In this document: in pieces, positions 5,645 through 28,595 of the stretch | Numbering within the stretch: position 1 is the first letter of the stretch | Layout of the letters: the number at the start of each line of letters is the position of its first letter | IMG/VR virus record: IMGVR_UViG_3300030520_000090 | Span: 1 to 28,619 of that record | Reading direction: 5' to 3' (one strand) | Source: a virus | DNA length: 28,619 bases | Notes under the pieces: generated by a model | Seen by the model: only the letters and a program-made list of their open reading frames with translations | Told to the model about the DNA's origin: nothing | The model's database searches: none | Translations under genes and position numbers: made by a program

Positions 5645-6394
5645 GTGAACTATAATCAAGTCCAGATCGTGAACCTGGCCCTCGGTCGCCTCGGCGCTCG
5701 CGCAATCACGGACATCAACGAGTCTTCACCTAACGCGGTGAAGGCTCTGACTGTCTGGGACCCAATATTTCAAGAGGTTCTTAGCGAGCGGGACTGGCGC
5801 TTCGCTAAGACTCGCACGCTGCTCCAACTCAGCCCCTGGCAGCCCCTCTACGGCTACAAGTGGGCCTGGGCGCTACCTGCGGACCTCCTGCGCTTCGTCA
5901 GGCCCTACAGGAAGCAGCACGAGGGCGGTGGGTACTACTGGGGAGTCGGTCCCGAGGGTGAAGGATGCTACTCCCGCCGCGACGCCCCCCTCTGGCCCTT
6001 CAACATGCCCTATGTGATTGAGACGATGCAGACCGGTGCAATCCCCACGCCGGTCAACGGAGCGCCTCCCGACCCCCTTCCGGCGTCCCCGAACGGACGC
6101 TACGTCCTGTGTGACTACAACGGCTGCTATGGGCCTGTCGCCATCACCTACATCCAGCTCATCTCCGACTACACCCAGCTCATGCCGGGTTTTGTGAATG
6201 CCCTGACCAATCGCCTAGCCCAGGAGCTTGCCATCCCCATCACCGAGGACAAGGCGAAGTTCCAAGCAGCGGCCGAATGGTATAAGGAAAGCCTCAACTC
6301 CTCCGAGGCTCAGAACGAGTGCCTGGATTACAGTGAGGATGAGGCGGGAACCGATTCTTGGCGGCGAGCAGGCCGCTACGCGTGGCGGTGGTAA
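5645..6394 (+). CDS. Tail tubular protein A (T7 gp11-like adaptor)
   Basis: A 249-residue protein starting with GTG at 5645 after a GAGAGAGGG site. The N-terminal pattern QIVNLALGRLGARAITDINE, followed by AVKALTVWDPIFQEVLSERDWRFAKTR with W51, is the signature of the gp11/gp4 adaptor family that forms the ring between portal and tail nozzle. The middle holds an aromatic, Pro/Gly-rich stretch, and the C-terminal part has the helix-rich LTNRLAQELAIPITEDKAKFQAAAEWYKES segment typical of the family. Its stop directly abuts the ATG of the gp12-like gene, so the two tail tube proteins are made together. Confidence 0.9.
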   Translation: MNYNQVQIVNLALGRLGARAITDINESSPNAVKALTVWDPIFQEVLSERDWRFAKTRTLLQLSPWQPLYGYKWAWALPADLLRFVRPYRKQHEGGGYYWGVGPEGEGCYSRRDAPLWPFNMPYVIETMQTGAIPTPVNGAPPDPLPASPNGRYVLCDYNGCYGPVAITYIQLISDYTQLMPGFVNALTNRLAQELAIPITEDKAKFQAAAEWYKESLNSSEAQNECLDYSEDEAGTDSWRRAGRYAWRW

Positions 6395-9300
6395 ATGGCT
6401 CCAAAGACCTATCCAGTAAAGTACGCGTTCAACGCGGGAGAAATCTCGGAGCTTTGTCAGTTCCGCGATGACGTTCAGAAGATTTCGAGCGCGTGCCTTC
6501 AACTGGAAAACCTCGTCCCCCTCGTTGAGGGAGGTGTCAAGAAGATGCCCGGCACCTACTTCGCCGGAGCGACCGCGCTAGGCGGGGCGATGTTCATCGG
6601 GTCGATTGACGGTACGACGCTCACTGTCACGGAAGTCATCTATGGCACCATCCGTATCGGGCAGACGGTCTCTGGCGTCGGCGTAGCTCCGGGTACGGTC
6701 ATCACGGCCTACATCCCCACAGAGACTCCATTCTTCACCTTCTACACCGTGTCGGAAACTTCATCTGGAACCGGAACTGGCGATTGGCAATTTGTTGGGA
6801 CGCAGTGGAGGACTCACTTTGAGCCAGTCACCACCACCCTCAGTCAACTTACCTTCACGAACCTCGGATTCTCCATCCCCGCGACCGCGACCATCCTCGG
6901 AGTTTCGGTAAGCGCGGAGCTTGTGTCTCAGTTCGCAACCACGAGTGTCCTATCCCAAGTGGCCTTGTGGTCGGCTGGAGCCCCTCTCGGAACAATCAAA
7001 GCCCCCAACACCCCGTTCACGACCTCAGTTCTGACCGAGGTCTACGGGAACTCTACCGACCTGTGGGGAGCTGCCCTGACTCCTGCAATCGTCAATGCAG
7101 CGGGTTTCGGTTTTGCGATGGCGGTCGCGACAGATACGTCACGCATTTTCATTGGCGAGCCCTTCAAGGTGACCATTGAGTACCAGATTGAGACGACGGT
7201 AGAGAGTGGATCTCCTGGCGGTGTAGGGCAGTACACGGTTAGTCAAACGCAGGAGATAACAAGCGAGTTGATGCAAACTGCGTCGAGCGGGAAGAGTCGC
7301 TTAGTGCCGTTCCAGTTCTCCACGATTCAAGGAGCCGTGCTCGAATTTTCCGCTGGCATCATACGGATATGGGAAGGAGCCTCTCAGGGTTCGTGGTCCC
7401 TCGGACTCGCTCTACAGACCCCTCCAGCGGGCTCTGATTACATGCCATCGGATGCCTACGCCGCTGGAGATCTAGCTCTTGTAGGATCGTACGCCGCTGC
7501 ACTGAACTATACGTCTACAGGAGCAGGGTGGGTACCCGATTCTGCACTGGGGGTTCTCCACTTCGCTGCCCCATACCTGCAAAGTATTGCGGTGCCGGCG
7601 CCGATCACGATTACTACGAACGGGTCGGATACTTTGAGTGTCACGAAAACGGGGACTGCCCCAAATCAGGGGATCAATGTAGCCCTAGCGAATACCACTC
7701 CGTCACTGAACGCTGCCGCCTTGATTCAGGTGGCGATTCGCGCGCTCGGGTCAGTCAACACTCCTGGTAACAACTTTGTCGACCTCTCTCAGTGGGTGGT
7801 TGTGCCGAGTGCTTTCTATTACGCCACCCCGTGGATCGTGGCCCCAACAACTGCTCCAGGGAGCAGCATAAGTGTCGGCCTCACCGAATCTGTCGTCGTC
7901 CAGTGCGTGGCCCCAAACACGCAAGACGAGTTCCCTCTCTTTTATGACGGAACCTTCAACTCGACGTATTGGGTGGCCTACAACGCGACCGAGCAGCCCG
8001 CTATTGAGTTGGCTACGCCATATCTCGAAGGGGACCTGTTCGCTCTCGATTGCAGTACGCAGAGCGCAGATGTTTTGTGGATCTTCCACCCTAACTACCC
8101 TCCGGCCGTGATCGAGCGCCTGGGGCCTAATTCGTGGGTCTACAGCCTATCTCTTCCGGGGCAGCAGGCCGGAGAGCCTCCCTATAGAGGGACGCTCGAT
8201 GTCGTGACGACTGGTTACAGCGCCCTCGGGCAAAACATTAGTCTCATTTCACAGGCGGCGACCTGCACCGTGGTTCTGACTACGAGTCCCAACAATCAGC
8301 CGTTCAATGTTGGCGACAGGATCTACATCAATGAAGGTGCGGGCATGGTCGAGCTGAACGAGGGGGAATTTCTCGTTCACACTATCGCTTATGGTGCGGT
8401 AACCATCCCCGTGATCGACTCCGCTGGAACCGCCTCCACAATCTCTGGGACGGGATGGTACATCACTCTTTCCGACCCGGATACGGGAGTTGTAATCAAC
8501 TCCTCCAGCTATTTGCAGTACCAGGGAGGAGCCTTCGCTGTGAAGGTAGCTGCGATCTACGCGTCGTCAGGAGACTATCCGGCCTGCGGCACGCTCTACC
8601 AGGAGCGCCTTACCGTGGGCGGGTCCAACAATAACCCGACGCGCTTGAGCGGCAGCGTGGCGGATGACTACCCGAACTTTATTTGCGATCCCAACGAAGA
8701 GGACTACGCCTTCCAGTTCACGTTGGTATCCGACCAGGTCAACCAGCTTCTCAATATGATCGGAACCCCCAATGCATTGCTCGCGGGGACCTCTGGAGGC
8801 GTCTGGGTGATTGCACCAAGTAGCGGAACCTCTCTGAGTCAGACCAACGTCAACGCGGGCCAGCAGGGGTCGCTGGGGGTGGCTCCCTTGCAGCCGCAGG
8901 CGATCAACGGGTCGGCGATCTTCGTATCGCGCTCCGCACGGATCATCACCTTCCTCGAATACGACTTCGTGAGCAACGCTTGGAAGAATACGGATCTAAC
9001 TCGCCTCAACCGGAACATCACGATCACGAACTCCTATGCCACTTCGGGCGTAGCGCAGACAGCTTTCCAGACCGAGCCCTATCCGATCTACTGGTGCGTT
9101 CGCAACGACGGGCAACTGATCGGTCTCGTGTTCAATACGCAGGATGAAATCTACGCGTGGTTCCGAGTGAACATGCAGGGTACTGGAACCATCGAGTCGA
9201 TAGCCTGTATTAGCGGGCAAGACCAAGAGGACCAGCTCGCTATTGTCGTCAACCGAACGATCAACGGCGTGTCGCAGAGGTTCGTCGAATACTTCATGCA

Positions 9301-10117
9301 GCAGGAGTTGTTCCATCAGTTATCGAATGCGTTCTTCGTGAACTGCGGCCAGCAACTCAACGGCGGGTCGAGCGTGGAGATTCTTGGAATCAGCAACTCG
9401 AATCCTCCCGTAGTGATGGCTCCCGGTCACGGCTTTACGAATGGAATGCTCATCAATATCTCCGACGTGGTGGGCATGTCCTATACGGTAGGCGAGCCTC
9501 CGAACCAGCAGATAGTCTCGGAGATCAACATCGATCAGACTTCGGCGTATACGGTCATCAATGCGAGCGCGAACACTTTCGCCCTTCAAGGCATGGACTC
9601 GACCACTTTCGCCCCCTACATCAGTGGGGGAACGGCTAAGCAGGTGTTCAACCAAGTTACCGGCCTGAGCTATCTCCTCGGTCAAACAGTTGTTGCAGTG
9701 GGAGACGGGGCTCAGATCCTCCAGCCTACGGTGGTTACAGAAGATTCGATCACGCTGCCCTACTACTCAAACCTCATAACTATCGGTATTCCCTACGAGA
9801 TCATCCTGCGCCCCACCAACCCCGTGCTCGCATCGCCTGACGCCACGACTCGCAGCATGAAGCAGAAGCTCAATCGCGCTACACTGTCTTTATACGAAGC
9901 GATGGGAGGACAGGTTGGAGTTGACCTACTGCACATGTACGACATTGAATACGGTCCAGGGTCGATGCTCCAGCAGCCAGAGATGACGACGGCTTCAGTA
10001 GTCATGGATCTCGATGCTGATTGGGAGGTTTCTTCCAAGCTTTACATCACGCAGAATGTGCCTTTCCCGTTCACTCTGCTGGGTTTGGTTTTGCGTATGA
10101 ACGTCAATCAGGATTGA
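6395..10117 (+). CDS. Tail tubular protein B (T7 gp12-like nozzle), enlarged by inserted modules
   Basis: At 1240 residues this is much longer than T7 gp12 (about 800). The canonical start is present (FNAGEISEL, F-x-DDVQKISSACLQLENLVPLVEGGVKKMPGTYFAG, residues 11-58), but the expected continuation (SGKSRLVPFQFSTIQGAVLEF) comes only at about residue 298. Between them lie a GTVITAY...YTVS-type segment and a beta-sandwich with a FSIPATATILGVSVS start and a DLWGAALTPAIVNAAGFGFA motif. A second insertion (about 330-540) precedes the canonical ELATPYLEGDLFALDCSTQSADVLWIFHPNYPPAVIERLG block. Two further modules resemble the E1-FCCH-like domains of phage tail proteins (about 622-700 and 995-1090). 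The tube-forming core appears intact, so the inserts probably decorate the nozzle. Confidence 0.9.
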   Translation: MAPKTYPVKYAFNAGEISELCQFRDDVQKISSACLQLENLVPLVEGGVKKMPGTYFAGATALGGAMFIGSIDGTTLTVTEVIYGTIRIGQTVSGVGVAPGTVITAYIPTETPFFTFYTVSETSSGTGTGDWQFVGTQWRTHFEPVTTTLSQLTFTNLGFSIPATATILGVSVSAELVSQFATTSVLSQVALWSAGAPLGTIKAPNTPFTTSVLTEVYGNSTDLWGAALTPAIVNAAGFGFAMAVATDTSRIFIGEPFKVTIEYQIETTVESGSPGGVGQYTVSQTQEITSELMQTASSGKSRLVPFQFSTIQGAVLEFSAGIIRIWEGASQGSWSLGLALQTPPAGSDYMPSDAYAAGDLALVGSYAAALNYTSTGAGWVPDSALGVLHFAAPYLQSIAVPAPITITTNGSDTLSVTKTGTAPNQGINVALANTTPSLNAAALIQVAIRALGSVNTPGNNFVDLSQWVVVPSAFYYATPWIVAPTTAPGSSISVGLTESVVVQCVAPNTQDEFPLFYDGTFNSTYWVAYNATEQPAIELATPYLEGDLFALDCSTQSADVLWIFHPNYPPAVIERLGPNSWVYSLSLPGQQAGEPPYRGTLDVVTTGYSALGQNISLISQAATCTVVLTTSPNNQPFNVGDRIYINEGAGMVELNEGEFLVHTIAYGAVTIPVIDSAGTASTISGTGWYITLSDPDTGVVINSSSYLQYQGGAFAVKVAAIYASSGDYPACGTLYQERLTVGGSNNNPTRLSGSVADDYPNFICDPNEEDYAFQFTLVSDQVNQLLNMIGTPNALLAGTSGGVWVIAPSSGTSLSQTNVNAGQQGSLGVAPLQPQAINGSAIFVSRSARIITFLEYDFVSNAWKNTDLTRLNRNITITNSYATSGVAQTAFQTEPYPIYWCVRNDGQLIGLVFNTQDEIYAWFRVNMQGTGTIESIACISGQDQEDQLAIVVNRTINGVSQRFVEYFMQQELFHQLSNAFFVNCGQQLNGGSSVEILGISNSNPPVVMAPGHGFTNGMLINISDVVGMSYTVGEPPNQQIVSEINIDQTSAYTVINASANTFALQGMDSTTFAPYISGGTAKQVFNQVTGLSYLLGQTVVAVGDGAQILQPTVVTEDSITLPYYSNLITIGIPYEIILRPTNPVLASPDATTRSMKQKLNRATLSLYEAMGGQVGVDLLHMYDIEYGPGSMLQQPEMTTASVVMDLDADWEVSSKLYITQNVPFPFTLLGLVLRMNVNQD

Positions 10118-16002: not shown

Positions 16003-16106
16003 TGAGACGAGCCTTTGACAACGGTACTAAGCCTGCGGGGTATCACACGTCGTGGACGTATACGTGGAACTGCATCTGCAAGCAGTTAGGAATTGAGGAA
16101 TTTTGA
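16002..16106 (+). CDS. 34-residue ORF coupled to both neighbours, function unknown
   Basis: A short frame starting with ATG at 16002, sharing one base with the stop of the large ejection gene (TAATG) and overlapping the next gene's TTG by four bases (TTGA). GAGGAAG lies just before the ATG. The peptide begins MRRAFDNGTKPAGYHTSW, is rich in Trp, Tyr and Thr, has a CIC pair and ends GIEEF. Precise fit between two coding frames, with a ribosome site, argues for translation. Otherwise the space would be an unusually long gap for this operon. It could be a leader peptide coupling translation of the ATP-grasp gene, a peptide substrate, or non-functional. Confidence 0.5.
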   Translation: MRRAFDNGTKPAGYHTSWTYTWNCICKQLGIEEF

Positions 16107-17393: not shown

Positions 17394-17675
17394 ATGCCAC
17401 TTTTGACGGTAACGCTTGGTGCGGGAGCAACTCAATTTACGAATCAACCCCTGCGGGGTATGGCGGTGAAAGCGTGGCAGGGAGCCAGCGCCTCGTTCGT
17501 AGGCGACTCCCCTACCGTTACGACATCGACCGGCATCCCGGTCACGAACGCATCCGCGACCGTCGCCCCGCTGAACCTTGGTCCTTTCACCAGCGGAGCG
17601 CTTAACTTGAACCAGTGGTACGCAATCGGGACGCCTGGCGATGTTGTCCACATTCAGTACACTCCCGAAGAGTAA
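17394..17675 (+). CDS. Small beta-rich structural protein, function unknown
   Basis: A 93-residue protein with GAGGGTAA before its ATG. It consists of short strands and turns: an N-terminal LLTVTLGAGATQFTN, then VKAWQGASASFVGDSPTVTTSTGIPV, and a C-terminal LNLNQWYAIGTPGDVVHIQY. The YVGD(S)-x-V-x-x-x-x-GIP-like element and the IGT-x-GD-x-V-x-x-x-Y ending recur in small proteins near phage tail genes, some of which sit at virion vertices or tails. It has no cysteine, no signal peptide and no membrane segment, unlike the three large genes that follow. An adaptor for the appendages is possible from position, but nothing in the sequence shows it. Confidence 0.75.
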   Translation: MPLLTVTLGAGATQFTNQPLRGMAVKAWQGASASFVGDSPTVTTSTGIPVTNASATVAPLNLGPFTSGALNLNQWYAIGTPGDVVHIQYTPEE

Positions 17676-17684
17676 GGGGTAACG

Positions 17685-20600
17685 ATGAAGCGCATTCTTG
17701 TCTTTCTCTTCGCTTTGCTGTGTCCGCTGGTGGGGCACGCTACGGTCACGACACTATACAACAGCGCCTCGTTCGCTTGCACCGGAAGCACTGGACCTTA
17801 TCCATTCACCTTCCCGATCAGCGACCCTACGGCGATGACTGTATTTCAGAACGGAGTGACCGTACCCTCCACGTCTTACACCATCATCCCCGTGAACAAC
17901 GCCTACAAGAATGGCGGCAGCGTAACCCTAGCGGTCGCCTGCCCCTCAGGTGGAACCCTTCTACTTCTTCAGCGCAAGACTCCCCTCACGCAGACTCAGG
18001 TATTCACGAATAACATGCCGATCCCGATGACGGCTATCGAGAATGGTCTCGACAAGCTCACTGAGATCGCGCAGGACCAGCAGGCAATTCTGGATCTTGG
18101 AATCGTCCAAAGCGTAACCCCCGGAACGAACATCTCTTGCACGCCTTTCGTAGGTGGCAAGTGTACCGGGGCGATCACGATCAATGGGGCATCCAGCGGC
18201 ACTGGCATCCCCTATCCGGGAGCCGGGATAGCTAACAGCTCCGGCAGTGCGTGGAACACGAGCTACAGCAACACGAACCCCATCCCTGCAAGCTTCTTGT
18301 CGGCAATCCTCCCCTCCCAGGTTCAGCCTAGCTCGACCAATGGACAGATTCTCACTACGCAGGGCGGTGTGGCCTCATGGCAGCCTCCTAGCGGAGCAAC
18401 GTCTCCTGGTGGCTCTGTCGCTTATGTGCAACTCACCACTCTCGGCGCTTATACCTCCTGCCCCACGCTGACCTTCTCTGGCGGCGGCAGCCCTTCTGTG
18501 GCTGCTGTTGGAACCATCGTATGCGATGGTAGCGGTAACCCCCTCTATGCGCTTCTGACGAATGCTGGGTATGGGTACACCAGCACTCCGACCGTGGCTG
18601 TTACTGGCGGAGCGGGTGGAGGCGGGACGGCTGTTGCTGAGATGGGATCATTCGTCATCGCCCTCAATACTCCGGTAGCCTCCTCTGGAGCGGCTACTCC
18701 CAGCTTGAGCAATGGTATCTTGACGATTCCCTATTGGCCTTCTAGTGGTGGCGGTAGTGGATGCGCTATAGGTACCTGCGTAGTGAATGCAGGTACGGCA
18801 AATCAGTATGTTGTTCAATCGTCGGGAACGTCCTACGGATTCAGCGAAACGAGCACCTACAACGGCACGCAAAACTTCGACGGCTCATACTTCTCATCTA
18901 CGGCTCCCGGATGGAACAATGGGACGCCCTACAACGGAAACACCGATTGGGCCGGAGAGTCGTTCCGCTCCGCTGCTCCGGGCTTTATGTCAGCGACTGC
19001 TGGCATTACGCAATATGAACGCTGCCTCCTGACCCACGCCGCAGAAGGTGATACGCAGTGCGCCTATGACTACTTCTACATCTTCGGCAACGTGGTCAAC
19101 CCAAATGACGAGGGTGGAACCTACCGCGCGGCTCACGTCTATCAAATAGGTAACTACTATGGTCCAGTTGTTTCGGCGACGGCGGGGAGCAACGGCACGA
19201 CTCTTCTGGTCGTAACTGGTCCGTCATGTTTTGGAGCCTGCTCGGAACACGCCTACAACGCCAGTCAGTTTGCAGTCGGCGGAATCACAGTAAATCAGAC
19301 TTCAGGTGTTACGGGTCCGTACACGGTAAGCAATTGGACCCCTAACGTAGACGGCGCTCAGGAGTACGCCCTCAGCTCGGGAACCGTGACTCCTTCTACC
19401 GCTATCGGAACGATCTCGGGAACCTGCACAACTAGCGTGCAGGGTAAATTCGGAGTCTACGGAACGCAGACTTGCACAGTGAGTGTGATCCTGGGCTCCT
19501 TCGTCTCGGGGACTAATGTATTCCATGTCGGAGCGAAAGAGGAGGAAGATACTGGAGTTACAGTGACGGGAAGCGGATCGACTCAGACCGTCACGATGCA
19601 GTCGATGTATCCATTTGCGGCTGGCGACTTCCTCGGGCAAGGCGGTCCAGCAGGCAATGCTCTTGGCCCTAACACGGGCACCGTAACTACGGTCGATCTC
19701 ATCGCGGGGGCCCTCGATTCAACTCACATTCTGTTCGGTCATTGTGCGGCTGGGAGTGGGTGTGCCGGTGGCGGCAATGTGGTCAAGCCAAATACTGCGA
19801 CCACTAGCGCGAACTTATCCCGCAATAGTGGCACCGGCCTCGTCACGGCTACCCCCAACCCCTACAATTTTGGTTCCTTCACCTACCTCCCGGTTGGATC
19901 GACAATCGTCATCACGGGGGCGGTTCCTTCCGACCTAAATGGAACGTTCACAATTGCCTCCAATACTGGAGACCTCTACAACTCTTCAATAACTTGGGTC
20001 CAGTCCGGTTCTACTGAGACCAGCACGACGGCTGGCACGATGTCGTTCCCGCTGCCTACGATCAATATCTATCCGGCTGCGATGAACTGCGGTACAAACA
20101 ACGCTACTCAAGGCGACATCCAACTCTGCACAAACCACGCGACCTGGAACGTTGCCGATGTTGCGGTCGGCGCAGAGTCAAACGAGGTTGAGCTATCAGC
20201 CTACAACATCTACATGGGTCAGAGTTCGGGATTCAACGCGAGCATTCCGTCTGCGGGCATAACCCTGTTCAACCAGGGCGCTCAGGGAGTTGGGTGGATG
20301 TACGGATGCTATAACCAAACGGCCACCGACTCAGAGTGCGTCAACATCGACGGAAACTACTCCAACGACATCTGGATTGATCGCGACCCCGTGAACAACG
20401 GAGCACTCATCCTAGACGAGAACAATACTCATTCCACAAAGCCTCTCTTCTTGATACTTCGCGGGAACTCAAATATCCAGATTTTGATGACGCCGAGCAC
20501 AGACACCTATACGTTCGGTCCCCAAGGCGCTGGCGGCTTGGTGGCTTCCTCCCTTGCGCTTCCTACTGGAGGCTCTCCGACGGTTTGCTTCCACACAGAC

Positions 20601-21629
20601 GGATCGAACGGAGCCTGCGGCAGTGGAGGCTCGGTAAGCTCTGTCGCGAACAGCGACGGCACTCTGACCATCACGCCAACCACTGGATCGGTCATAGCCT
20701 CACTTGCACTGGGACACTCGAATACCTGGACGGCACCGCAAACTTTTGCTGGGCCGGTGACGGTTACAGGAGCAAGCCAGGGTCTAGTCTTCGCGGCCGG
20801 AACGGCTACTACTGGTACCGCTGGCTCGGTCGTCTACAGTGTTGACTCTACGCATGGGTACGCAGAGGTAAACGAAAACAACACCGGGCTTGCCCGAGTT
20901 TGCACATCCACGAACAGTATTTGCTCGACAGGTGGAACCGGCCTTTCGGGCATGACTGCGGGTCAAGTGCCTATTGCCGCGACAGCATCAACGGTCACCA
21001 GTTCTGTAGCTCCTTCGATCATCATCAACACGATCACTTGCCCACTTGGCGCGGCCGGTTGCACGGTGACTCTTCCTCCTCCGGTCAACTACATCTTTTA
21101 CCCTGCCGCAACCTCTGACGGTGGATCGTCCTTCGCCTCGGGTTGCACGCGATACTCCAGCAACCAGCCGCAAGCAGGATCGGTCAATTCCGCCGCGTCA
21201 GCTCTTGGGTATATGACCTTCCAAGCTGCTCCATCCTCGCTTCAATACTGCGAGTTCACTCGTACCGAGCCGTCTTACTGGACTGGAACGTCGATGAGCT
21301 TCGACTTCTTTAGCTCTGCTACTACAGGGACGGTCATTTGGGAAGTCCAGACGGTGTGCGTGATTTCTGGTACGACGGTCCTTTCATCCTCCTATAGCCC
21401 CACGTTTGGGACGGCTTCGACCGTGACTACGACGGTGAGTGGAACCGCAAATACGCTTGGCACGACTACGACGCTGGCGAACGTGGCGCAACCGGGAGTC
21501 GGCAACTGCCCAGCGAGTCCGACAACCCCAACGCAAGTTACCTATCGTGTCTTCCGTTCGGCTTCAGACACCGCCGCCGCGAACGCGAACCTGCTCGGCC
21601 TGAACCTTGGCGTTGGAAGGAGTCAGTAA
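17685..21629 (+). CDS. T7-type tail fibre protein with an N-terminal Sec signal peptide
   Basis: A 1314-residue protein after an AAGGGG site. It begins with a clear signal peptide: basic MKR, hydrophobic ILVFLFALLCPLV, and a probable cleavage after GHA (residue 19). The mature protein starts with a domain like the T7 gp17 fibre anchor (PYPFTFPISDPTAMTVFQNGVTVPS...TSYTI, then LLLLQRKTPLTQ and a LTEIAQDQQAIL helix, to about 140), which normally docks on the tail. Then come a GY-type module (243-320), mixed beta modules, an E1-FCCH-like module (about 710-790), a GLSGMTAGQVPIAATAS linker and a C-terminal beta-sandwich that may bind glycans. Thirty cysteines lie outside the signal, mostly as nearby pairs. 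This combination is unexpected in a cytoplasmically assembled fibre. Host binding is the likely role. Confidence 0.85.
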   Translation: MKRILVFLFALLCPLVGHATVTTLYNSASFACTGSTGPYPFTFPISDPTAMTVFQNGVTVPSTSYTIIPVNNAYKNGGSVTLAVACPSGGTLLLLQRKTPLTQTQVFTNNMPIPMTAIENGLDKLTEIAQDQQAILDLGIVQSVTPGTNISCTPFVGGKCTGAITINGASSGTGIPYPGAGIANSSGSAWNTSYSNTNPIPASFLSAILPSQVQPSSTNGQILTTQGGVASWQPPSGATSPGGSVAYVQLTTLGAYTSCPTLTFSGGGSPSVAAVGTIVCDGSGNPLYALLTNAGYGYTSTPTVAVTGGAGGGGTAVAEMGSFVIALNTPVASSGAATPSLSNGILTIPYWPSSGGGSGCAIGTCVVNAGTANQYVVQSSGTSYGFSETSTYNGTQNFDGSYFSSTAPGWNNGTPYNGNTDWAGESFRSAAPGFMSATAGITQYERCLLTHAAEGDTQCAYDYFYIFGNVVNPNDEGGTYRAAHVYQIGNYYGPVVSATAGSNGTTLLVVTGPSCFGACSEHAYNASQFAVGGITVNQTSGVTGPYTVSNWTPNVDGAQEYALSSGTVTPSTAIGTISGTCTTSVQGKFGVYGTQTCTVSVILGSFVSGTNVFHVGAKEEEDTGVTVTGSGSTQTVTMQSMYPFAAGDFLGQGGPAGNALGPNTGTVTTVDLIAGALDSTHILFGHCAAGSGCAGGGNVVKPNTATTSANLSRNSGTGLVTATPNPYNFGSFTYLPVGSTIVITGAVPSDLNGTFTIASNTGDLYNSSITWVQSGSTETSTTAGTMSFPLPTINIYPAAMNCGTNNATQGDIQLCTNHATWNVADVAVGAESNEVELSAYNIYMGQSSGFNASIPSAGITLFNQGAQGVGWMYGCYNQTATDSECVNIDGNYSNDIWIDRDPVNNGALILDENNTHSTKPLFLILRGNSNIQILMTPSTDTYTFGPQGAGGLVASSLALPTGGSPTVCFHTDGSNGACGSGGSVSSVANSDGTLTITPTTGSVIASLALGHSNTWTAPQTFAGPVTVTGASQGLVFAAGTATTGTAGSVVYSVDSTHGYAEVNENNTGLARVCTSTNSICSTGGTGLSGMTAGQVPIAATASTVTSSVAPSIIINTITCPLGAAGCTVTLPPPVNYIFYPAATSDGGSSFASGCTRYSSNQPQAGSVNSAASALGYMTFQAAPSSLQYCEFTRTEPSYWTGTSMSFDFFSSATTGTVIWEVQTVCVISGTTVLSSSYSPTFGTASTVTTTVSGTANTLGTTTTLANVAQPGVGNCPASPTTPTQVTYRVFRSASDTAAANANLLGLNLGVGRSQ
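18411..18644 (+). repeat. GY-type module, copy 1 (in the fibre protein)
   Basis: Residues 243-320 of the fibre contain the two-lobed pattern GAYTSCPTLTFSGGG and GYGYTSTPTVAVTGGAGGGG, each lobe being an aromatic turn, TS-x-PT-hydrophobic strand and Gly-rich loop. Copies 2 and 3 in the next gene share the CTS(T/A)PT(L/V)T core. The similarity is at protein level; I see no long DNA identity. Confidence 0.5.
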
Positions 21630-24600
21630 TGTTTCGCAAGTTACTGCCATTCCTTCTTTGTGCTTCGGCTCTGGGTCAGGCGACCAATCCGCAGAATACC
21701 TATGTCTCGTCGGTGCTGGTCAACTCCCCATCGCTCTACCTGAACTACAACGACGCGACTTCGGCGTTCAGAGACCAAATTTCTGGATCGAACTTTAGTG
21801 GTGTGGCGTCTCTTCCAACGCCTTATGGCACTTTCCCCACAACGACAAACGCATACGGGCCGGGCCAAGTATTTCTTACTGGGTTTATCCTCCCAACTGG
21901 AAGTGTTACCTCTATTGAAATCAAATATGCGGCTGCTCCTACCTCTGGATGGACATTGACTTGCGGGGTGTTCACCAATACCAGCGGGTCAAATTGGACT
22001 GCCGGTGCGAGCGTAGTTCTAACATCCAATGGATCGATTGACCAAAAATTCAACGCTCCCACCAATTTTACGGCGTTCGCTTCGACGTCAGGGCAGATGC
22101 TGGGATGCTGGGCTCCAGCAGCATACTCTGAACCGTTCAACGGAGCAATTACAGGGAACACGGGCTACTACTTGCCCGCCGCGCAAAGTTCTTTTCCTGT
22201 AGGATCATTTTCTTATACGGCAGTAGCGGGTGGCGGCTATGCTGTCATTACTACCGTGTCTGTCCCCTACACCTCTGGTACTGTCACGACACAGCAGCCT
22301 GGATTCGACAATACGAACAACACGAACTATTCGGCTGAATACCCATACAACGGATTCTCTGTAGCCCCAAACAACACGCTCGGCGCGTTCGACTGGTCAA
22401 GTCCAGAGACTCTGATGATTCACGTCGATAGGCTGAACTGGACTCGATCTGGAACGCTGGTCCTAGCCAGCAAAGGCGATACGTCGCAGTCTACGAATTT
22501 CTGGAGGCTTTACCTTCAGATGTCTGGACAAGATAGCCAACTGTGTTTCGAGTCGTTCGGGATTGGCCCCGGTGCCGTCTCTGGTGCGCCTGCAAATGCG
22601 GACAATGTGAACTGCACGGTAGCCGCTGTTGACGTGATGCCGAACGGGTTCAACTACAACATCATGGTGCAGCTCGGAGGCAACGGCTCCGTCTATTCGA
22701 ACAGCATCTACATCAACGGGCTAGCTCAATCTCTAACCAATTCTCAGGTTGGCAGCAAGGGCTTTGGGTATGTGACCGTGGCGCTTTCGGGCAGCGGTAC
22801 GGGATACGCGAGCAACACCTACTTCTCGAACAACGGCACGGGCGGGTCAAACTGCAACGTATTCGGTGTTATGAACGCGACCGGAGGGGTGCCGGCGCTC
22901 TCTAATCCGTTCAACACTACTCCGGCTCCGAATGGGACCTATCCGATTGACTACGGCTGCACCTCTACCCCGACGCTGACCTTCTCGTTTTCGCAGACAG
23001 CCTCCATGTCTTTTGGAGGTGCTTCCAACGTTCCGACACTGACCTCGTCCACCACGGCAACTTCAGTGAACAACGGGGTCGGCAGCGGAGTGCCAGCAGG
23101 AAGCTTACTTGTCGTGCAGGGTCTTCCCCCGAGCACGACAGCAGTCACCGATTCGGGTGGGGCAACGTGCTCTCTTGCGTCTGGCGCGTCGGGCGGCGAT
23201 TCGCTGGTGTATACCTGTCCAAACGTAACCTCGGGCAGCCACACGATCACGGCGACCTTCACTTCTGGTTCCACGTACACGTCAATCAACTCGGTTGACG
23301 TTATAGGGGCAGCCACGACTTCGCCGGTCGATACTACCGTTTACGCCACTGGAACGGGAACAGCCATATCGGTGGGCCCAATCACCACTACGGGGACCGG
23401 TGAATTTTTGGTCGGCTTCGCGGGCAACAGCAATATAGCCTCCAACGGTTGGACGGCTGGCGGAACGTCGCCTTGGCCTGGTAAGGGCGGAAATTCATAT
23501 ACGTATTCCTACCTGTCAGCCCCGACAGCCGGTGCGCAGCCGACGTGGGCCGTGACGGCGACAACCTCTAATCCGTGGTACGCCACCATCGTTGCCATTA
23601 AGCCACTAGTCACGACGTATTCAGCGACGGGAACCGGTGCCACAGTGGTCGCTACGATGTCGGGGGCATCGATGAACTCAGCGGCTAGCCCAATCATGGC
23701 TCCCGGATACATCAACACCAATGTTGCGTACGGAGTGGCTGGCTCTGCGTCAACGCAAACTCCCACTTACGTGGACGAGTTCGCGGAGTTTCCTTCGACG
23801 CTATCGCTAAGCGCTCTCGGAAATATCTTTTATCAAACCAAGTTCTATCAGGGCTTGAACGACCTCGCTTCAGTGGGCAATCCAGTCAAGGTTATTTTCG
23901 ACGATGACGGATGCAACGACTTAGACAATCTGTGGGCGTTGCAGGCGGCTATCTCAGAGCAAAATTTGGGATACATTCGCTTGGTTGGAGTAGTTGAAAC
24001 GAATCTCAACTACAACGACGTTGCGATATTCCGGCAGATGCTCGATCAGGCTGGCCTCGCCAGCGTTCCAGTTGGAGTCGTGGGGACTCTTGCGTCGGGT
24101 GCTGGTGGAGCTGCTTGTCCTACGGGAAACATCAACATATTCAACTCTTCAACCCTGGCCGTCGTCGCGGCAGAACCGGGCAATGGCATTCTATCCGCAG
24201 CGACCGTCTATCGTTTGGCGATGGCTGGTTCCCCCACGAAGCCAGTCATCATCTTTAGTGCAGGCTCCACGGTCGGCATTCAGCAGTTCATGCAAAGCGC
24301 GGCAGACAGCATCTCCCCTCTGACCGGGCAGCAACTGTGGAACCTGGACGTTACGAACGGCGGCGCGGTTTACATGCAAGGCGGCGGCGGAAGCTTTCCT
24401 TCGCTGCCGAACACGGCTGGCTTCTCTGGGGGTATCGGAAGCAACTGGGGCTTGAACTACACGGCCAGTCAGTATATCCTCACCAACCAAAACTCCATGC
24501 CACTCTACTGGTATGGAGGAACTCCGCAAAGCTCCGGCCCGGACCCTGAATACACCAGAATCGGCACTGATCCAATGTGGCTGGCCTGCTCCAACTCTGC

Positions 24601-25129
24601 CTGGACATCCTGCGTTCGCTCGGCATGGGACTCGTTGCCAATGGCGAATCTCATCAGCAGCTACTTCGCTCAGGGCGTGACGATTGGCGTGACTGGCGGC
24701 ACCGGATATGCGAACAGTACAGTGTTCAATCTTTCTGGAGGTGGATCGACCTGCTCTGGCTCCGGAATTATGACCGCGAGCAGCGGAGTGCCTAACGGGT
24801 TCACTACCGCTTCCGGGGTGAACATCAACGTTGAAGGAGCCTATGCGGCGCTTGGCGCGGGTAAGGGCTGCACAAGCGCTCCTACCGTCACCTTGGTAGC
24901 CCCCACAGGAACCGGGGCGACCTTTACGACCTACCTTACCTCGCTTTGTGGAACAGACGTGATTAGCGGCGGCTCGGATTCTTTTACCACCGGAACGTGC
25001 TCCAACCAGTACATCGTGTTTCAAAATCAGTATGCGGGCGGCTCGGGAATTTCTCCGATCTTCACTCAGTTTATGGATAGCTTGATCGATGCCCCGCCCA
25101 ACGGCTCGCCGAGGATCGTACCGCAGTGA
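21629..25129 (+). CDS. Signal-peptide-bearing lectin / nucleoside-hydrolase-like appendage protein
   Basis: A 1166-residue protein whose ATG overlaps the fibre stop (TAATG) after GGAAGGAG. Its signal peptide is MFRK + LLPFLLCASAL with probable cleavage after GQA (residue 18). The N-terminal part resembles a LamG/concanavalin-like lectin: YLNYNDATSAFRDQISG at 37, APNNTLGAFDWSSPETLMIHVDRLNW, and a closing YVDEFAEFPSTLSLSALGNIFY. It is interrupted by an insert at about 62-222 and by a GY-type module that itself carries about 205 extra residues (458-663). From about 750 a nucleoside-hydrolase-like domain follows (VIFDDDGCNDLDNLWAL at 755-771, VYMQGG, SNWGLNY at 938-944, SAWDSL), with a third GY-type module at 1014-1100. 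Sixteen Cys lie outside the signal. It is probably surface-acting; catalysis is uncertain because two predicted metal-ligand Asp positions are Asn (767, 943). Confidence 0.8.
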   Translation: MFRKLLPFLLCASALGQATNPQNTYVSSVLVNSPSLYLNYNDATSAFRDQISGSNFSGVASLPTPYGTFPTTTNAYGPGQVFLTGFILPTGSVTSIEIKYAAAPTSGWTLTCGVFTNTSGSNWTAGASVVLTSNGSIDQKFNAPTNFTAFASTSGQMLGCWAPAAYSEPFNGAITGNTGYYLPAAQSSFPVGSFSYTAVAGGGYAVITTVSVPYTSGTVTTQQPGFDNTNNTNYSAEYPYNGFSVAPNNTLGAFDWSSPETLMIHVDRLNWTRSGTLVLASKGDTSQSTNFWRLYLQMSGQDSQLCFESFGIGPGAVSGAPANADNVNCTVAAVDVMPNGFNYNIMVQLGGNGSVYSNSIYINGLAQSLTNSQVGSKGFGYVTVALSGSGTGYASNTYFSNNGTGGSNCNVFGVMNATGGVPALSNPFNTTPAPNGTYPIDYGCTSTPTLTFSFSQTASMSFGGASNVPTLTSSTTATSVNNGVGSGVPAGSLLVVQGLPPSTTAVTDSGGATCSLASGASGGDSLVYTCPNVTSGSHTITATFTSGSTYTSINSVDVIGAATTSPVDTTVYATGTGTAISVGPITTTGTGEFLVGFAGNSNIASNGWTAGGTSPWPGKGGNSYTYSYLSAPTAGAQPTWAVTATTSNPWYATIVAIKPLVTTYSATGTGATVVATMSGASMNSAASPIMAPGYINTNVAYGVAGSASTQTPTYVDEFAEFPSTLSLSALGNIFYQTKFYQGLNDLASVGNPVKVIFDDDGCNDLDNLWALQAAISEQNLGYIRLVGVVETNLNYNDVAIFRQMLDQAGLASVPVGVVGTLASGAGGAACPTGNINIFNSSTLAVVAAEPGNGILSAATVYRLAMAGSPTKPVIIFSAGSTVGIQQFMQSAADSISPLTGQQLWNLDVTNGGAVYMQGGGGSFPSLPNTAGFSGGIGSNWGLNYTASQYILTNQNSMPLYWYGGTPQSSGPDPEYTRIGTDPMWLACSNSAWTSCVRSAWDSLPMANLISSYFAQGVTIGVTGGTGYANSTVFNLSGGGSTCSGSGIMTASSGVPNGFTTASGVNINVEGAYAALGAGKGCTSAPTVTLVAPTGTGATFTTYLTSLCGTDVISGGSDSFTTGTCSNQYIVFQNQYAGGSGISPIFTQFMDSLIDAPPNGSPRIVPQ
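22751..22999 (+). repeat. GY-type module, copy 2, first part
   Basis: Residues 375-457 contain GSGTGYASNTYFSNNGTGGSNC and GCTSTPTLTFSFSQ, closely parallel to copy 3 (GGTGYANSTVFNLSGGGSTC and GCTSAPTVTLVAP). The copy breaks off after the PTLTF strand and resumes at 23618 with ATGTGAT, about 205 residues later. Confidence 0.55.
23618..23662 (+). repeat. GY-type module, copy 2, second part
   Basis: Residues 664-678 (YSATGTGATVVATMS) match the end of copy 3 (APTGTGATFTTYL). This marks the right boundary of the domain inserted between the two parts. Confidence 0.5.
24668..24928 (+). repeat. GY-type module, copy 3 (inside the hydrolase-like domain)
   Basis: Residues 1014-1100 form an uninterrupted GY-type module lying between two parts of the nucleoside-hydrolase-like domain: the SAWDSLPMANLI segment before it and a C-terminal helix (FTQFMDSLIDAPP) after it. 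It is the best reference copy for reading the split copy 2. Confidence 0.55.
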
Positions 25130-27231
25130 GAAACCTGCTCATCCTCGCGCTTCTACTGTGCTCCGTTCCCGCGTGGGCCACAACCTGGTTTGTGCGCCAA
25201 GCGGGAGGGACTCGCTACGACGCAACGCACACCTCAGGGCAGTGCTCGGGTCTTGCGGATGCCGACTACCCCGGTACCGGCACAAATCAAGCGTGCGCTT
25301 TCTCAAGCGTGCAATACCTCTACAGCGACGGCACATATGGAGTGGCGGCGTGGGTAGGAACGGGCGGAGATACCTACGTTATTCGTGGGTGCGCAGCGTT
25401 CTCAGGCGAGTCCAACCCGTCTCCTCCGAACTGCCGAGTAGGTTGGGTGACCAACACCGGCTCTGGAGGTTTGTGCGCCGGCATCACGGCCTACTATGGA
25501 TGCTCAATCCCGCCTCCACCCAGCGGGACATCCGGCAATCCAACGAAGATCCTCGGTGGCTGCGCCTACGGAACGTATACCTGCACGCCGGTAACGAGCT
25601 ATCCCTACGCGAGCAACAACCTCACGCAAATCTTCGGAGGCATGAACGTCGGTGCTGTGCTGTGGCTCTACGGCTCGCAGTACGTGACCATCGAAGGTAT
25701 AGAGATTACGACGCACAACGGGGCGTGCAGTCCAACTGGCTCACCAGCCTACCCTGCCGCGTGCAGCAACTCTTCTCCAGTCAGCGACTATGCAAAGTAC
25801 GGCATTCTGACCAACAACCAAACCTCAAACATCGTCCTCCAGGATGTCTACATTCATGGCATGGCGGTGGAAGGGATCGGCGGCCCAATCGGCGGCCCAT
25901 TCACTTTGACGCGGGTCTCCAACGACTTCAACGCCTTTGCTGGGTGGAACTTCGACGACACGAACTCCTACTTCGGCAACGTCACTTCGTACTCCATCAC
26001 CAGCAACGTCATCACACTTCAGTACACGAACGGCGAGGGTTTCTCGCTGACGGCTGGTCAGCTAATCAACCTCTCGGGATTCGGAACCTCGACGTTCCTG
26101 AACGGCCAAGCAATCACTCTGACCTCAGCGACCTCTTCTCAGATGGTGGCAAGCTTTACCCACGCGAACACCTCGGCGACGGAGAGTGGGAGCTATGCGA
26201 ATGGCCCAACGCCCGACGCTTCCGGTTCGACAATCACCCAGAGCTACATGACGATGGTTGGGAATGGATGCTTAGAGCAGTATCCCATCTCAAATACCGC
26301 GTTTCCCGCGAAGGCTTGCTGGGATAGCAACAGCGCCGGATTCGGCGACTCATGGTCGGGTCAGAACAGCGAACTGGACACTTTCACCTGTGACCATTGC
26401 GCGGTCTACTACAACGTGAAGGACGCAGCGATGGGTCCGCACACGCTCATTAAGAACCTCAGCGTGACAAACTCCATCTTCTACGGGAATATGGGGCAGC
26501 AGGGGAAGTGGGGCACGACAGCGAGCAATACCACCCTCTTCCAGAACAACCTCTACGTGGGCGACTGCCAGCGGATGTCTACGGCTTTACCGGGGGCTGC
26601 GCAGAACTTCAATCAGACGACAGGGCTGGGCGGCTCGTACCTAACCAATTACTGCCGCGCAGCTGGCGACCTGTTCGACTACTTCTCGGACATCAACTCC
26701 ACAGTCAACTTCAATGGCAATACTTTCATAGGCTACAACGCGACGATCTTGAATCTTGGCTTCGCGACAGTAGGCCAGGGTGCGACCTCTCCCTACAACT
26801 TCACGGACAATTCATTTCTCGGCTATTCGACCACCACGGGCAACTACCCGAACACAGGCCAGGCGCCAGGTCTGTTTTACAAGTCGGAGTCCTCTGTCAC
26901 CCTCGTCTCCTCGTACAACGCTGAATATGGAACCCGGAACGACAATTGCGACGGCACCTTTACGGGAACGCATATTGTCTGCACCGACCCCGCTTTCGTC
27001 AGCGAGCCAGCGCAGGGTGCCTATCCCCCGGATTCAGTGTTCGACAGCTTCAACTTTCACCCAACCTCCGGAAGCCCCTTGCGCGCGGCGGGCACGACGA
27101 TCTCAGGCATGACGACCGATTACTACGGGGTTACGCGCCCTAGCCCTCCAGGAATAGGCGGAGTTGAGTATTCCATCGCGACGTCAGCTAGTTTTTCAGG
27201 GGGATACATCTCTGGAGGTGTCGTTTATTAG
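25126..27231 (+). CDS. Exported parallel beta-helix protein (possible polysaccharide-acting appendage)
   Basis: A 701-residue protein starting with GTG at 25126, overlapping the previous stop by 4 nt (GTGA), with GAGGAT upstream. The signal peptide is MRN + LLILALLLCSV with a classic AWA cleavage site at residue 18. The mature start (WFVRQAGGTRYDATH...VGTGGDTYVIRG) is the usual opening of pectate-lyase-like right-handed beta-helices. Rungs follow, such as LYGSQYVTIEGIEITTHN and NIVLQDVYIHGMAVEGI. An E1-FCCH-like module (about 286-366) interrupts the rungs. The end (SPLRAAGTTISGMTTDYYGVTRPSPPGIGGVEY) is the typical closing of secreted beta-helix proteins. There are 18 Cys outside the signal. 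It may be a depolymerase or a binding protein; I see no definite catalytic residues. A longer-looking overlapping frame (25089-26327) is an Arg-rich shadow. Confidence 0.82.
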   Translation: MRNLLILALLLCSVPAWATTWFVRQAGGTRYDATHTSGQCSGLADADYPGTGTNQACAFSSVQYLYSDGTYGVAAWVGTGGDTYVIRGCAAFSGESNPSPPNCRVGWVTNTGSGGLCAGITAYYGCSIPPPPSGTSGNPTKILGGCAYGTYTCTPVTSYPYASNNLTQIFGGMNVGAVLWLYGSQYVTIEGIEITTHNGACSPTGSPAYPAACSNSSPVSDYAKYGILTNNQTSNIVLQDVYIHGMAVEGIGGPIGGPFTLTRVSNDFNAFAGWNFDDTNSYFGNVTSYSITSNVITLQYTNGEGFSLTAGQLINLSGFGTSTFLNGQAITLTSATSSQMVASFTHANTSATESGSYANGPTPDASGSTITQSYMTMVGNGCLEQYPISNTAFPAKACWDSNSAGFGDSWSGQNSELDTFTCDHCAVYYNVKDAAMGPHTLIKNLSVTNSIFYGNMGQQGKWGTTASNTTLFQNNLYVGDCQRMSTALPGAAQNFNQTTGLGGSYLTNYCRAAGDLFDYFSDINSTVNFNGNTFIGYNATILNLGFATVGQGATSPYNFTDNSFLGYSTTTGNYPNTGQAPGLFYKSESSVTLVSSYNAEYGTRNDNCDGTFTGTHIVCTDPAFVSEPAQGAYPPDSVFDSFNFHPTSGSPLRAAGTTISGMTTDYYGVTRPSPPGIGGVEYSIATSASFSGGYISGGVVY

Positions 27232-27284
27232 AGGACCTGTTCATGGTGGGGTAATCTGTTGAAGGGGATATTTGGACGGCTGTC

Positions 27285-27298
27285 TAACCTATAGGGGG
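27285..27298 (+). promoter_or_regulatory. Possible phage-type promoter core upstream of the lysis genes
   Basis: The 73-bp space before the lysis cassette is the largest gap in the window and contains TAACCTATAGGGGG. CTATAGGG matches the initiation end of single-subunit RNA polymerase promoters, but the upstream recognition half does not match T7, and part of the run also serves as the ribosome site of the next gene. No such polymerase gene is in the window. Confidence 0.2.
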
Positions 27299-27304
27299 TT
27301 TCGC

Positions 27305-27535
27305 GTGAATACATGGGCTGTTTGGGTTCCTTCGATCATCACTCTCGTCTCCGTGATCTATGCGGCGGGAGCTATCGTTGGAAGAATCAAGGATCAGGAA
27401 GCTACCATTTCAGCCCACAACGACTGGCTCAAAAGTCACGACGTTAGGTTAGGGGTCAACGAAATCGCCATCGCCAAAGGCGAGGCGTGGCGTGCTGGGT
27501 ACGATGCGGGCAAGTCTTCGCACGGGAGGGCCTAG
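27305..27535 (+). CDS. Small one-TM membrane protein of the lysis cassette
   Basis: I place the start at GTG 27305, which has AGGGGG six bases upstream; an earlier in-frame TTG at 27272 has poorer support and would put a charged stretch before the membrane segment. The 76-residue product has one N-terminal transmembrane helix (WAVWVPSIITLVSVIYAAGAIVG, about 4-26) and a charged helical tail (KDQEATISAHNDWLKSHDVRL). Its topology suits an inner-membrane spanin subunit, holin accessory or antiholin, and it lies directly before the lysozyme, overlapping it by one base (TAGTG). Which of these it is cannot be told from the sequence. Confidence 0.7.
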   Translation: MNTWAVWVPSIITLVSVIYAAGAIVGRIKDQEATISAHNDWLKSHDVRLGVNEIAIAKGEAWRAGYDAGKSSHGRA

Positions 27536-27969
27536 TGGACCTCGGACCCAAAGGCCTAGCCCTCATCAAGAGCTTCGAGAAATGCGTCCTGACGGCCTAC
27601 AGGGACGGGGCCGGCATTCTTACCATAGGTTGGGGTCACCGAGGACCCGAAGTTGTCCCTGGGCTCACCTGGACGCAGCAGCAGGCCGACCAGCAGCTCA
27701 TCAAGGACACCTCTTGGGCTCAATCGGTCGTCAATGCGATCACGGAGCCGATCAACCAGAATCAGAACGACGCCCTGGTCTCGTTCGTAGTCAATGTCGG
27801 CTCCGGGAACTTCATCTCCTCCCACCTTCGGCTCTACGTGAACGAGGGAGAGTTCGGCCAAGCCGCCCAGCAGTTCCTTCGCTGGGTACACGACGCAAAT
27901 GGTAATGTAGAGCAAGGCCTGGTGACGCGCCGAGAGGCTGAGATGGCATTATTCGAGGAGGCAGCATGA
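27535..27969 (+). CDS. Endolysin: T4-type lysozyme (GH24 muramidase)
   Basis: It cleaves the MurNAc-GlcNAc bonds of peptidoglycan at lysis. From the GTG at 27535 (GGGAGGG site, one-base overlap with the previous stop) it is 144 residues. The catalytic triad is visible with exact T4 spacing: E15 in SFEK, D24 in AYRDG and T30 in LTIGWGH (T4: E11, D20, T26). A NQNQNDALVSFVVNVG segment and a C-terminal LVTRREAEMALF complete the family pattern. There is no signal peptide or signal-anchor, so it depends on a holin to reach the wall. An in-frame start at 27487 would overlap the membrane protein gene by 49 nt and is less likely. The 3' end overlaps the holin gene by 4 nt (ATGA). Confidence 0.92.
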   Translation: MDLGPKGLALIKSFEKCVLTAYRDGAGILTIGWGHRGPEVVPGLTWTQQQADQQLIKDTSWAQSVVNAITEPINQNQNDALVSFVVNVGSGNFISSHLRLYVNEGEFGQAAQQFLRWVHDANGNVEQGLVTRREAEMALFEEAA

Positions 27970-28208
27970 AGGACTTGAGTAATTCGGGATGGGCTGGAAT
28001 CTTTATCTTTATGGCTGTAGTTTTGGCCGGGGTCGCGCTTTTCTCCAAAAGCTCGAATGCGACCGAGGTCCTCACCATCGCGTCGTCGATCATCACCGGG
28101 GCCTTCGGCTACATCCAGGGCGTGAACTCGAACAAGAACAATGTCCAGATCCCGCTCAACCCGGACTCACCGAGCCCGAACGTCAGCGTGAACAGCCCAA
28201 AAGCGTAA
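27966..28208 (+). CDS. Holin candidate (two transmembrane helices)
   Basis: An 80-residue protein whose ATG overlaps the lysozyme stop (ATGA), with GAGGAGGCAGC upstream. Two hydrophobic helices are evident: about 9-26 (WAGIFIFMAVVLAGVALF) and about 34-52 (EVLTIASSIITGAFGYIQG), joined by a short polar turn. A hydrophilic Asn/Pro/Ser-rich tail follows. This is the size and topology of a class II holin, which would let the signal-less lysozyme reach the periplasm. No specific family is recognised; the call rests on topology and its place next to the lysozyme. Confidence 0.72.
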   Translation: MKDLSNSGWAGIFIFMAVVLAGVALFSKSSNATEVLTIASSIITGAFGYIQGVNSNKNNVQIPLNPDSPSPNVSVNSPKA

Positions 28209-28226
28209 GCGTACCAAAGGAGCCCC

Positions 28227-28595
28227 ATGAAGAAGTTTCTCTTACCTCTCGTTCTTCTCTTAGCGGGTTGCCACGCGGCGACCTCCACAACCCCTCCAGT
28301 AGCCCTAGCGCCGGGCTTCTCCAGCCAAGCCGATCAAACCGTCGATCAGATCCTAGTGGGGGCACGCGGGTTCTACGTGTCGATCCAGGACAGCGTGAAT
28401 GCCCAAACCTACACGCCCACTCCGGCAGCCCTAAAGGCCCTCAACGACTTTGGAGTCGCCCTCAACACGGCCGAGACAGTGTATCTCGCCTACCACAACG
28501 GGACGGCAACTCTGGCTCAGGCTCAAGCGGCCGCAGCTACCGTGTCGACTCAGCAAACCGCAGTCTCAACCCTCGTCACAGGAGCAACCCAGTGA
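28227..28595 (+). CDS. Phage lipoprotein downstream of the holin
   Basis: A 122-residue protein with AAAGGAG before its ATG. It has a lipoprotein signal (MKKFLLPLVLLLAGC) with lipobox L-A-G-C and lipidated Cys at 15, followed by a Thr/Pro-rich spacer. The mature part is Ala/Gln/Thr-rich and probably helical (QADQTVDQILVGARGFYVSIQDSV, then a long Ala-rich helix), with no further Cys. The position suggests a lysis or envelope role. It could be an outer-membrane spanin partner for the 76-residue membrane protein, but it is longer and less Pro-rich than most o-spanins. A lipoprotein acting in superinfection exclusion is an alternative. Confidence 0.78.
   Translation: MKKFLLPLVLLLAGCHAATSTTPPVALAPGFSSQADQTVDQILVGARGFYVSIQDSVNAQTYTPTPAALKALNDFGVALNTAETVYLAYHNGTATLAQAQAAAATVSTQQTAVSTLVTGATQ

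Follow-up and report, generated by a model that had tools for sequence, protein, structure and literature searches.

In the textbook scheme, tail fibres of tailed phages are fitted to the tail inside the cytoplasm, a compartment in which disulfides are not made. Fibres of the T7 gp17 type, whose anchors have the PF03906 fold (Carin1, PDB 8ck1; LME-1, 9efk; T7, 7boz), carry their receptor-binding part at the C-terminus, and in the known members the protein starts at the anchor, with neither a signal peptide nor a cysteine (Cys) pair. Here we describe three consecutive genes, P1, P2 and P3, in a 28.6-kb IMG/VR fragment of a soil phage (record IMGVR_UViG_3300030520_000090, positions 1 to 28,619; hereafter the window), which holds the structural module of a short-tailed phage. 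P1 resembles the T7 gp17-type fibres in the fold of its anchor, in the place of that anchor at the mature N-terminus and in its C-terminal receptor-binding part. However, in P1 the anchor follows a predicted Sec signal peptide and contains two cysteines. Podoviruses of the BPP-1/epsilon15/BcepC6B type have related capsids (27-36% identity to the major capsid protein of the window, a distant relationship), a similar gene order and fibres that share the anchor of P1, but these anchored fibres are signal-less. Small proteins with a signal peptide do stand beside signal-less fibres in BcepC6B (gp19, the next gene) and in Xanthomonas phage PBR31 (orf035).

Signals for export have been described in related settings. 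Secreted phage endolysins (fOg44 Lys44 and the signal-arrest-release (SAR) endolysins; PMC6116005) use the host Sec system through an N-terminal signal, as we propose for P1, P2 and P3, but they are lysis enzymes rather than tail appendages, and SAR signals are uncleaved. WceF, an exopolysaccharide hydrolase of Pantoea stewartii with a tailspike fold (PMC7949094), has a signal directly before a tailspike-like head, as P1 does before its anchor. Unlike P1 it is encoded by a bacterial gene, its signal is of the Tat and not the Sec type, its head is of the P22 type and there is no virion. The preliminary description of this DNA knew of no signal peptide placed directly before a fibre anchor, a statement that has to be qualified by WceF and, among phages, by the unremarked signal peptides on tail proteins of the Tunturi phages and of BcepC6B and PBR31. 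In the open-access literature that was searched, supplements aside, no paper reports a signal peptide on a fibre of a tailed phage, and prior notice elsewhere is possible. As far as we found, what is new here is the joining of known fibre anchors to known Sec export in tailed phages.

The three large proteins had been described as beginning with a basic n-region, a hydrophobic core and small residues at -3/-1, the pattern expected for Sec and signal peptidase I. We found the open reading frames and N-termini as quoted. A home-made n/h/c-region scorer, whose training list of E. coli-type signal peptides is approximate and which recovers 31-36 of 40 such peptides in leave-one-out runs depending on threshold, gave a Sec-type call for all three. 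The predicted cleavage falls between residues 19 and 20 in P1 (A/TVTTLY, score 5.0) and between residues 18 and 19 in P2 (A/TNPQNT, 8.7) and P3 (A/TTWFVR, 17.3). When the first 45 residues were shuffled the observed score was reached in 72 of 5000 cases for P1, 5 of 5000 for P2 and 0 of 5000 for P3. Upstream of P1 the scorer called none of the 14 listed genes, its sole other call in the window being the lysis lipoprotein at 28227, and no other virion-module gene starts with a Sec-type signal peptide. At the level of sequence this confirms that P1, P2 and P3 each carry a Sec-type signal peptide with a predicted cleavage site. A Tat signal was ruled out by the starts MKRILV, MFRKLL and MRNLLI, which lack the twin-arginine motif S/T-R-R-x-F-L-K, and a lipoprotein signal by the T rather than Cys at +1 in all three. 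Pfam and NCBIfam searches with P1, P2 and P3 gave no match above cut-off.

Table 1. Positions of P1, P2, P3 and associated features in the window (aa, amino acids; SP, signal peptide)
Feature	Position	Strand	Remarks
P1, 1314-aa tail fibre (predicted)	17685..21629	+	SP 1-19, T7-type anchor ~20-135, Cys-rich shaft/tip
Sec signal peptide of P1, MKRILVFLFALLCPLVGHA	17685..17741	+	Called by scorer; junction coincides with the start of signal-less homologues
P1 fibre anchor domain with Cys32 and Cys86	17742..18104	+	Cys pair comparison; AlphaFold2 model
P2, 1166-aa putative exported appendage	21629..25129	+	SP 1-18; 16 Cys in mature chain
P3, 701-aa putative exported beta-helix protein	25126..27231	+	SP 1-18; 18 Cys in mature chain; GTG start
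Tail tubular/adaptor-like protein	5645..6394	+	phrog_394; no SP
Tail nozzle-like protein	6395..10117	+	phrog_376; no SP; presumed docking partner of the P1 anchor
Two internal virion proteins, 591 and 1203 aa	10616..16002	+	No cysteines, no SP; internal contrast to P1, P2 and P3
Lysis module	27272..28595	+	Membrane protein, phage lysozyme (PF00959, 27487-27969), membrane protein, lipoprotein 28227-28595

The claim that a T7-type fibre is among the three proteins was borne out by fold. The mature N-terminal domain of P1 matched PHROG tail-fibre families, several of them starting at profile position 1-2, and by hmmsearch it matched the Carin1 fibre in PDB 8ck1 over residues 2-124 (E 1.2e-5). An AlphaFold2 model of the anchor had a mean predicted local distance difference test score (pLDDT) of 78.8, and its best PDB matches in Foldseek were the portal-tail fibre anchors of Carin1, LME-1, HRP29 and P-SCSP1u, with T7 gp17 lower (8ck1, 9efk, 8es4, 8i4m, 7boz). 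Because these best matches are portal-tail fibre anchors, the model confirms the P1 anchor as T7-type at the level of fold. It is assigned by fold and not as a PF03906 member: in the Pfam search with the window anchor nothing passed, the PF03906 gathering score was not reached and one A1 member gave E 0.0013. Fold, conservation and gene position suggest that the anchor docks on the tail nozzle.

We then compared anchors collected from capsid relatives and by a scan with an anchor alignment; a single-protein scan using the P1 N-terminus had found no relatives. P1 and 15 relatives gave 16 distinct anchors preceded by a signal peptide, judged by inspection and mostly also called by the scorer. 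Their signal-like N-termini are divergent, and all end at A/TV or A/AV. The hydrophobic start is thus kept in these homologues, the opposite of what the preliminary description had named as speaking against export. Signal-less anchors begin at the same junction, with M-TV, M-TI, M-SV or similar. This holds for the close relatives L074/G003 and L079/G033, for the distant L082 and for the anchors examined in cultured phages (BcepC6B, BPP-1, SPN1S, BUCT711, ST512-KPC3phi13.3, K300, ZP6, ctVRi840 and Pelagibacter phages), which span phages of Klebsiella, Vibrio, Alteromonas, Pelagibacter, Burkholderia, Bordetella and Salmonella; the anchor gene of HTVC204P has an annotated start 13 codons upstream and still lacks a signal peptide. 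Since signal-less homologues start at the junction, the N-terminus of the mature exported form would be equivalent to that of the Met-trimmed cytoplasmic one.

The signal peptide covaries with a pair of cysteines in the anchor. Exactly two are present in 16 of 16 anchors with a signal peptide, at aligned positions or, in L077 and L080, two residues off. In contrast, the pair occurs in 0 of 15 signal-less anchors, most of which have no cysteine (BPP-1 has one, and L082 has two, one of them located elsewhere). In the anchor tree the signal-less L074 and L079 are nested in the signal-bearing clade (clade support 99/96; join to L066 89/82). Because they fall inside it, the history is most simply read as one gain and one loss, the signal peptide and both cysteines probably having been lost together. 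The 22 invariant columns of the anchor are conserved equally in members with and without a signal peptide. Start sites of the signal-bearing anchors lie upstream of the signal peptide, most with a Shine-Dalgarno match. A dual start giving secreted and cytoplasmic forms was rejected, as no internal start is both conserved and preceded by a convincing Shine-Dalgarno site; this lack points to a single translated form, with no sign of a cytoplasmic version. The signal-less relatives L059 and L061 (in G033 and G003) have short anchor proteins (357-358 aa) with no cysteine, followed by genes with signal peptides, and in these two phages a cytoplasmic adaptor may receive exported tips. One relative (L076:3204-13760) has two anchored fibre genes with signal peptides, of 708 and 1919 aa. 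A small Cys-rich protein with a signal peptide (L057:1984-2406) is encoded in G007 at a distance from the tail cluster and on the other strand.

Cysteines also set the mature proteins as a whole apart. P1, P2 and P3 have 64 cysteines in 3126 mature residues, compared with 25 in 5363 for the signal-less virion-module genes (p 2e-11). In an automated set of signal-bearing open reading frames from the window and its relatives, assembled with no hand-picking, the Cys number after cleavage was even in 25 of the 26 proteins that have cysteines, compared with 53 of 96 signal-less proteins, and all eight proteins whose signal peptide holds an odd number of cysteines became even only once it was removed. 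A hand-curated set that includes the Tunturi phages, picked by eye after the signal calls from a listing that displayed Cys counts, gave an even mature count in 56/60, or 22/24 when counted per homology cluster (p 1.8e-5). In both sets the proteins are partly homologous and the cleavage sites are predictions. Alternation of close pairs was significant in 28 of 33 proteins with signal peptides and in 0 of 23 signal-less controls; in P1 the median gap is 10 residues within successive pairs and 73 between pairs. In the P3 family cysteines 117 and 126 are both gone in L112, as are 481 and 510 in L105, and one further pair, found in most relatives, is missing from P3 of the window. Parity, close pairing and paired losses therefore fit oxidative folding in the periplasm and are hard to reconcile with a reducing cytoplasm. 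The even, pairwise-placed cysteines strongly support the view that P1, P2, P3 and their kin are disulfide-bonded exported proteins.

Signal peptides on tail genes recur in other phages. Among the Tunturi phages 1-5 of Acidobacteriota (PMC11924767), whose phage types and anchors differ from those of the window phage, phages 1, 2, 4 and 5 have signal peptides on tail-fibre or virion-structural genes, as the window does; the main text of that paper makes no mention of them. The genes are gp17 in Tunturi_1, gp12, gp13, gp14, gp16 and gp17 in Tunturi_2, gp114 (and by eye gp113) in Tunturi_4, and gp337, gp338 and gp341 (and by eye gp342) in Tunturi_5. In Tunturi_5 gp337 and gp341 the signal peptide precedes a 'PNL.L..P...E.(D/E)WG'-like segment that by eye resembles the signal-less start of Tunturi_4 gp112; a tblastn search with the N-terminal anchor of gp337 against other phages found Tunturi_5 itself only. 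The near-complete contig G026 (48 kb) has four appendage genes, every one of which bears a signal peptide (548, 756, 290 and 1186 aa, the 290-aa one below threshold), and no signal-less fibre candidate was seen in a by-eye inventory of open reading frames of at least 150 aa covering all but ~0.8 kb. Since none was seen, the receptor-binding protein of G026 should be an exported one. The Tunturi links, and these only, suggest that the host of the window phage belongs to the Acidobacteriota; contig scans for relatives in bacterial genomes, made for host identification, found none.

We propose that P1, P2 and P3 are tail appendages exported by the host Sec system. Signal peptidase I would cut off the first 18-19 residues; once in the periplasm, an oxidising compartment, the mature chains would fold and bring nearly all their cysteines into local disulfides. 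Mature P1 (TVTT...) would have the same kind of N-terminus that ordinary cytoplasmic fibres have once their Met is removed, and its T7-type anchor could therefore still dock on the nozzle. Tails are assembled in the cytoplasm, and docking would therefore wait until the lysis genes open the envelope; the lysis module presumably lets virions meet the exported fibres. In well-studied phages, fibres and tailspikes can be joined to particles in vitro, which makes docking after lysis plausible. The signal peptides, cleavage junction, disulfide signature, anchor fold, single form and conservation across phages are supported by the sequence analysis, and export and disulfides of the appendages strongly so. 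The earlier suggestion that this phage exports such proteins is thus well supported as to export itself, by a signal peptide directly before an anchor, its covariation with the Cys pair and the disulfide signature. Export in vivo, periplasmic folding, presence on virions and the timing of docking are what we infer from these features. Taken as a whole, from Sec export to docking at lysis, we consider this account reasonably likely.

Some points weigh against it. The signal peptide of P1 has the weakest score of the three, Tunturi_3 lacks signal peptides on tail-labelled genes while sharing its host with Tunturi_1 and 2, and the G026 inventory was made by eye from a size-limited list with a short part unread. 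In addition, an exported protein may do its work unattached, apparently the case for WceF (PMC7949094). P1, P2 and P3 might then be exported and disulfide-bonded yet never on virions, serving, free or bound to cells, as adhesins or polysaccharide enzymes that clear exopolysaccharide, mask receptors on debris or neighbours or exclude superinfection, with the anchor kept for trimerisation. WceF, whose P22-tailspike-like head is needed for stability, the low-confidence carbohydrate-active model of P3 and the signal-less anchor proteins of G003 and G033 adjoining large proteins with signal peptides are consistent with this, but the anchor residues are equally conserved with and without the signal peptide, the genes sit in the late virion operon and G026 showed no signal-less fibre candidate; we judge it unlikely. 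A mixed system, in which P1-type anchored fibres dock at lysis and P2/P3-type proteins are free enzymes or attached to fibres, is improbable too. A recognised tail anchor is present in P1 only, and P3 relatives have long N-terminal regions fused to them in L101 and L112 and stand alone in other phages, but the P3 relatives gp17 and gp114 of Tunturi phages are annotated, by homology only, as virion structural proteins.

The preliminary description had raised another possibility, that the hydrophobic N-terminus is an unusual tail-docking element. As such, or as a membrane-piercing element, it would be an uncleaved part of the fibre. It is indeed hydrophobic, short and at the very start. However, signal-less homologues begin at the cleavage point, which leaves this reading unsupported, an A-x-A type cleavage motif is present, and Cys parity holds only with the signal peptide removed, as part of the disulfide signature, so that we regard such an element as very improbable. 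Least credible of all are chance hydrophobic N-termini or wrong start codons. The P1 score is reached by 1.4% of shuffles, but 16 anchors have upstream start sites and a common junction, three genes in a row bear signal peptides and the feature is kept in unrelated phages. The conservation across the 16 anchors is the strongest evidence against chance.

If export followed by docking at lysis is true, fibre folding would be separated from virion assembly, which would account for the use of disulfide-hardened adhesins and give fibre attachment at lysis a reason. Infectivity would then require host Sec, signal peptidase and thiol oxidases, and secreted-looking proteins on viral contigs may be tail fibres, a warning for annotation. 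Phages of this group probably make their host-binding parts in another compartment than the rest of the particle. We give roughly even chances to the broader view that a large set of tailed soil phages, mixed in phylogeny and typical of Acidobacteriota hosts, has Sec-exported, periplasm-folded receptor-binding appendages that are attached at lysis, the infectious particle being completed extracytoplasmically.

Within the phage collection, relatives of P2 and P3 were found solely in the Tunturi phages of Acidobacteriota, their closest cultured relatives. Residues 752-1005 of P2 are related to the Tunturi_5 virion structural protein gp338, and no P2 relatives were found among viral contigs. The shared stretch (residues ~750-1005, ~23876-24643) includes VIFDDDGCNDLDNLWAL and by eye resembles a nucleoside-hydrolase-like fold; a Pfam search on it gave no match. 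P3 has relatives in Tunturi phages and in large metagenomic phages, and the complete ones in metagenomic phages, some on contigs of 101-231 kb, start with signal peptides. The structure model of P3 is of low confidence (pLDDT 49.8), and its Foldseek matches are carbohydrate-active beta-helices and tailspikes, a hint that P3 may be a carbohydrate-active beta-helix, compatible with a virion or a free role.

The window runs from portal, scaffold and major capsid through the tail tubular protein, the nozzle and the internal virion proteins to a conserved 426-aa gene, a 93-aa gene, P1, P2, P3 and the lysis module. No defence system was matched by PADLOC, and promoter and terminator scans gave matches below chance level. 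The counterparts of the two internal virion proteins in the relatives examined also have no cysteines. The gene at 16103-17383, kept in relatives at 418-426 aa between the internal virion proteins and the exported cluster, encodes KSVAVVDNG...SFGKVYYTSPWV and by eye looks ATP-grasp-like; searches of Pfam, PHROG and NCBIfam gave no match for it. An E1_FCCH-like domain was matched in the nozzle-like protein at 1011-1084 (E 1e-9), which is odd in a tail protein. The 93-aa protein at 17394-17675 lacks a signal peptide and is also present in G033; at this position most relatives have a protein of ~175-415 aa with a signal peptide, and these proteins share the conserved start AGTCTVTDVTSTQ.

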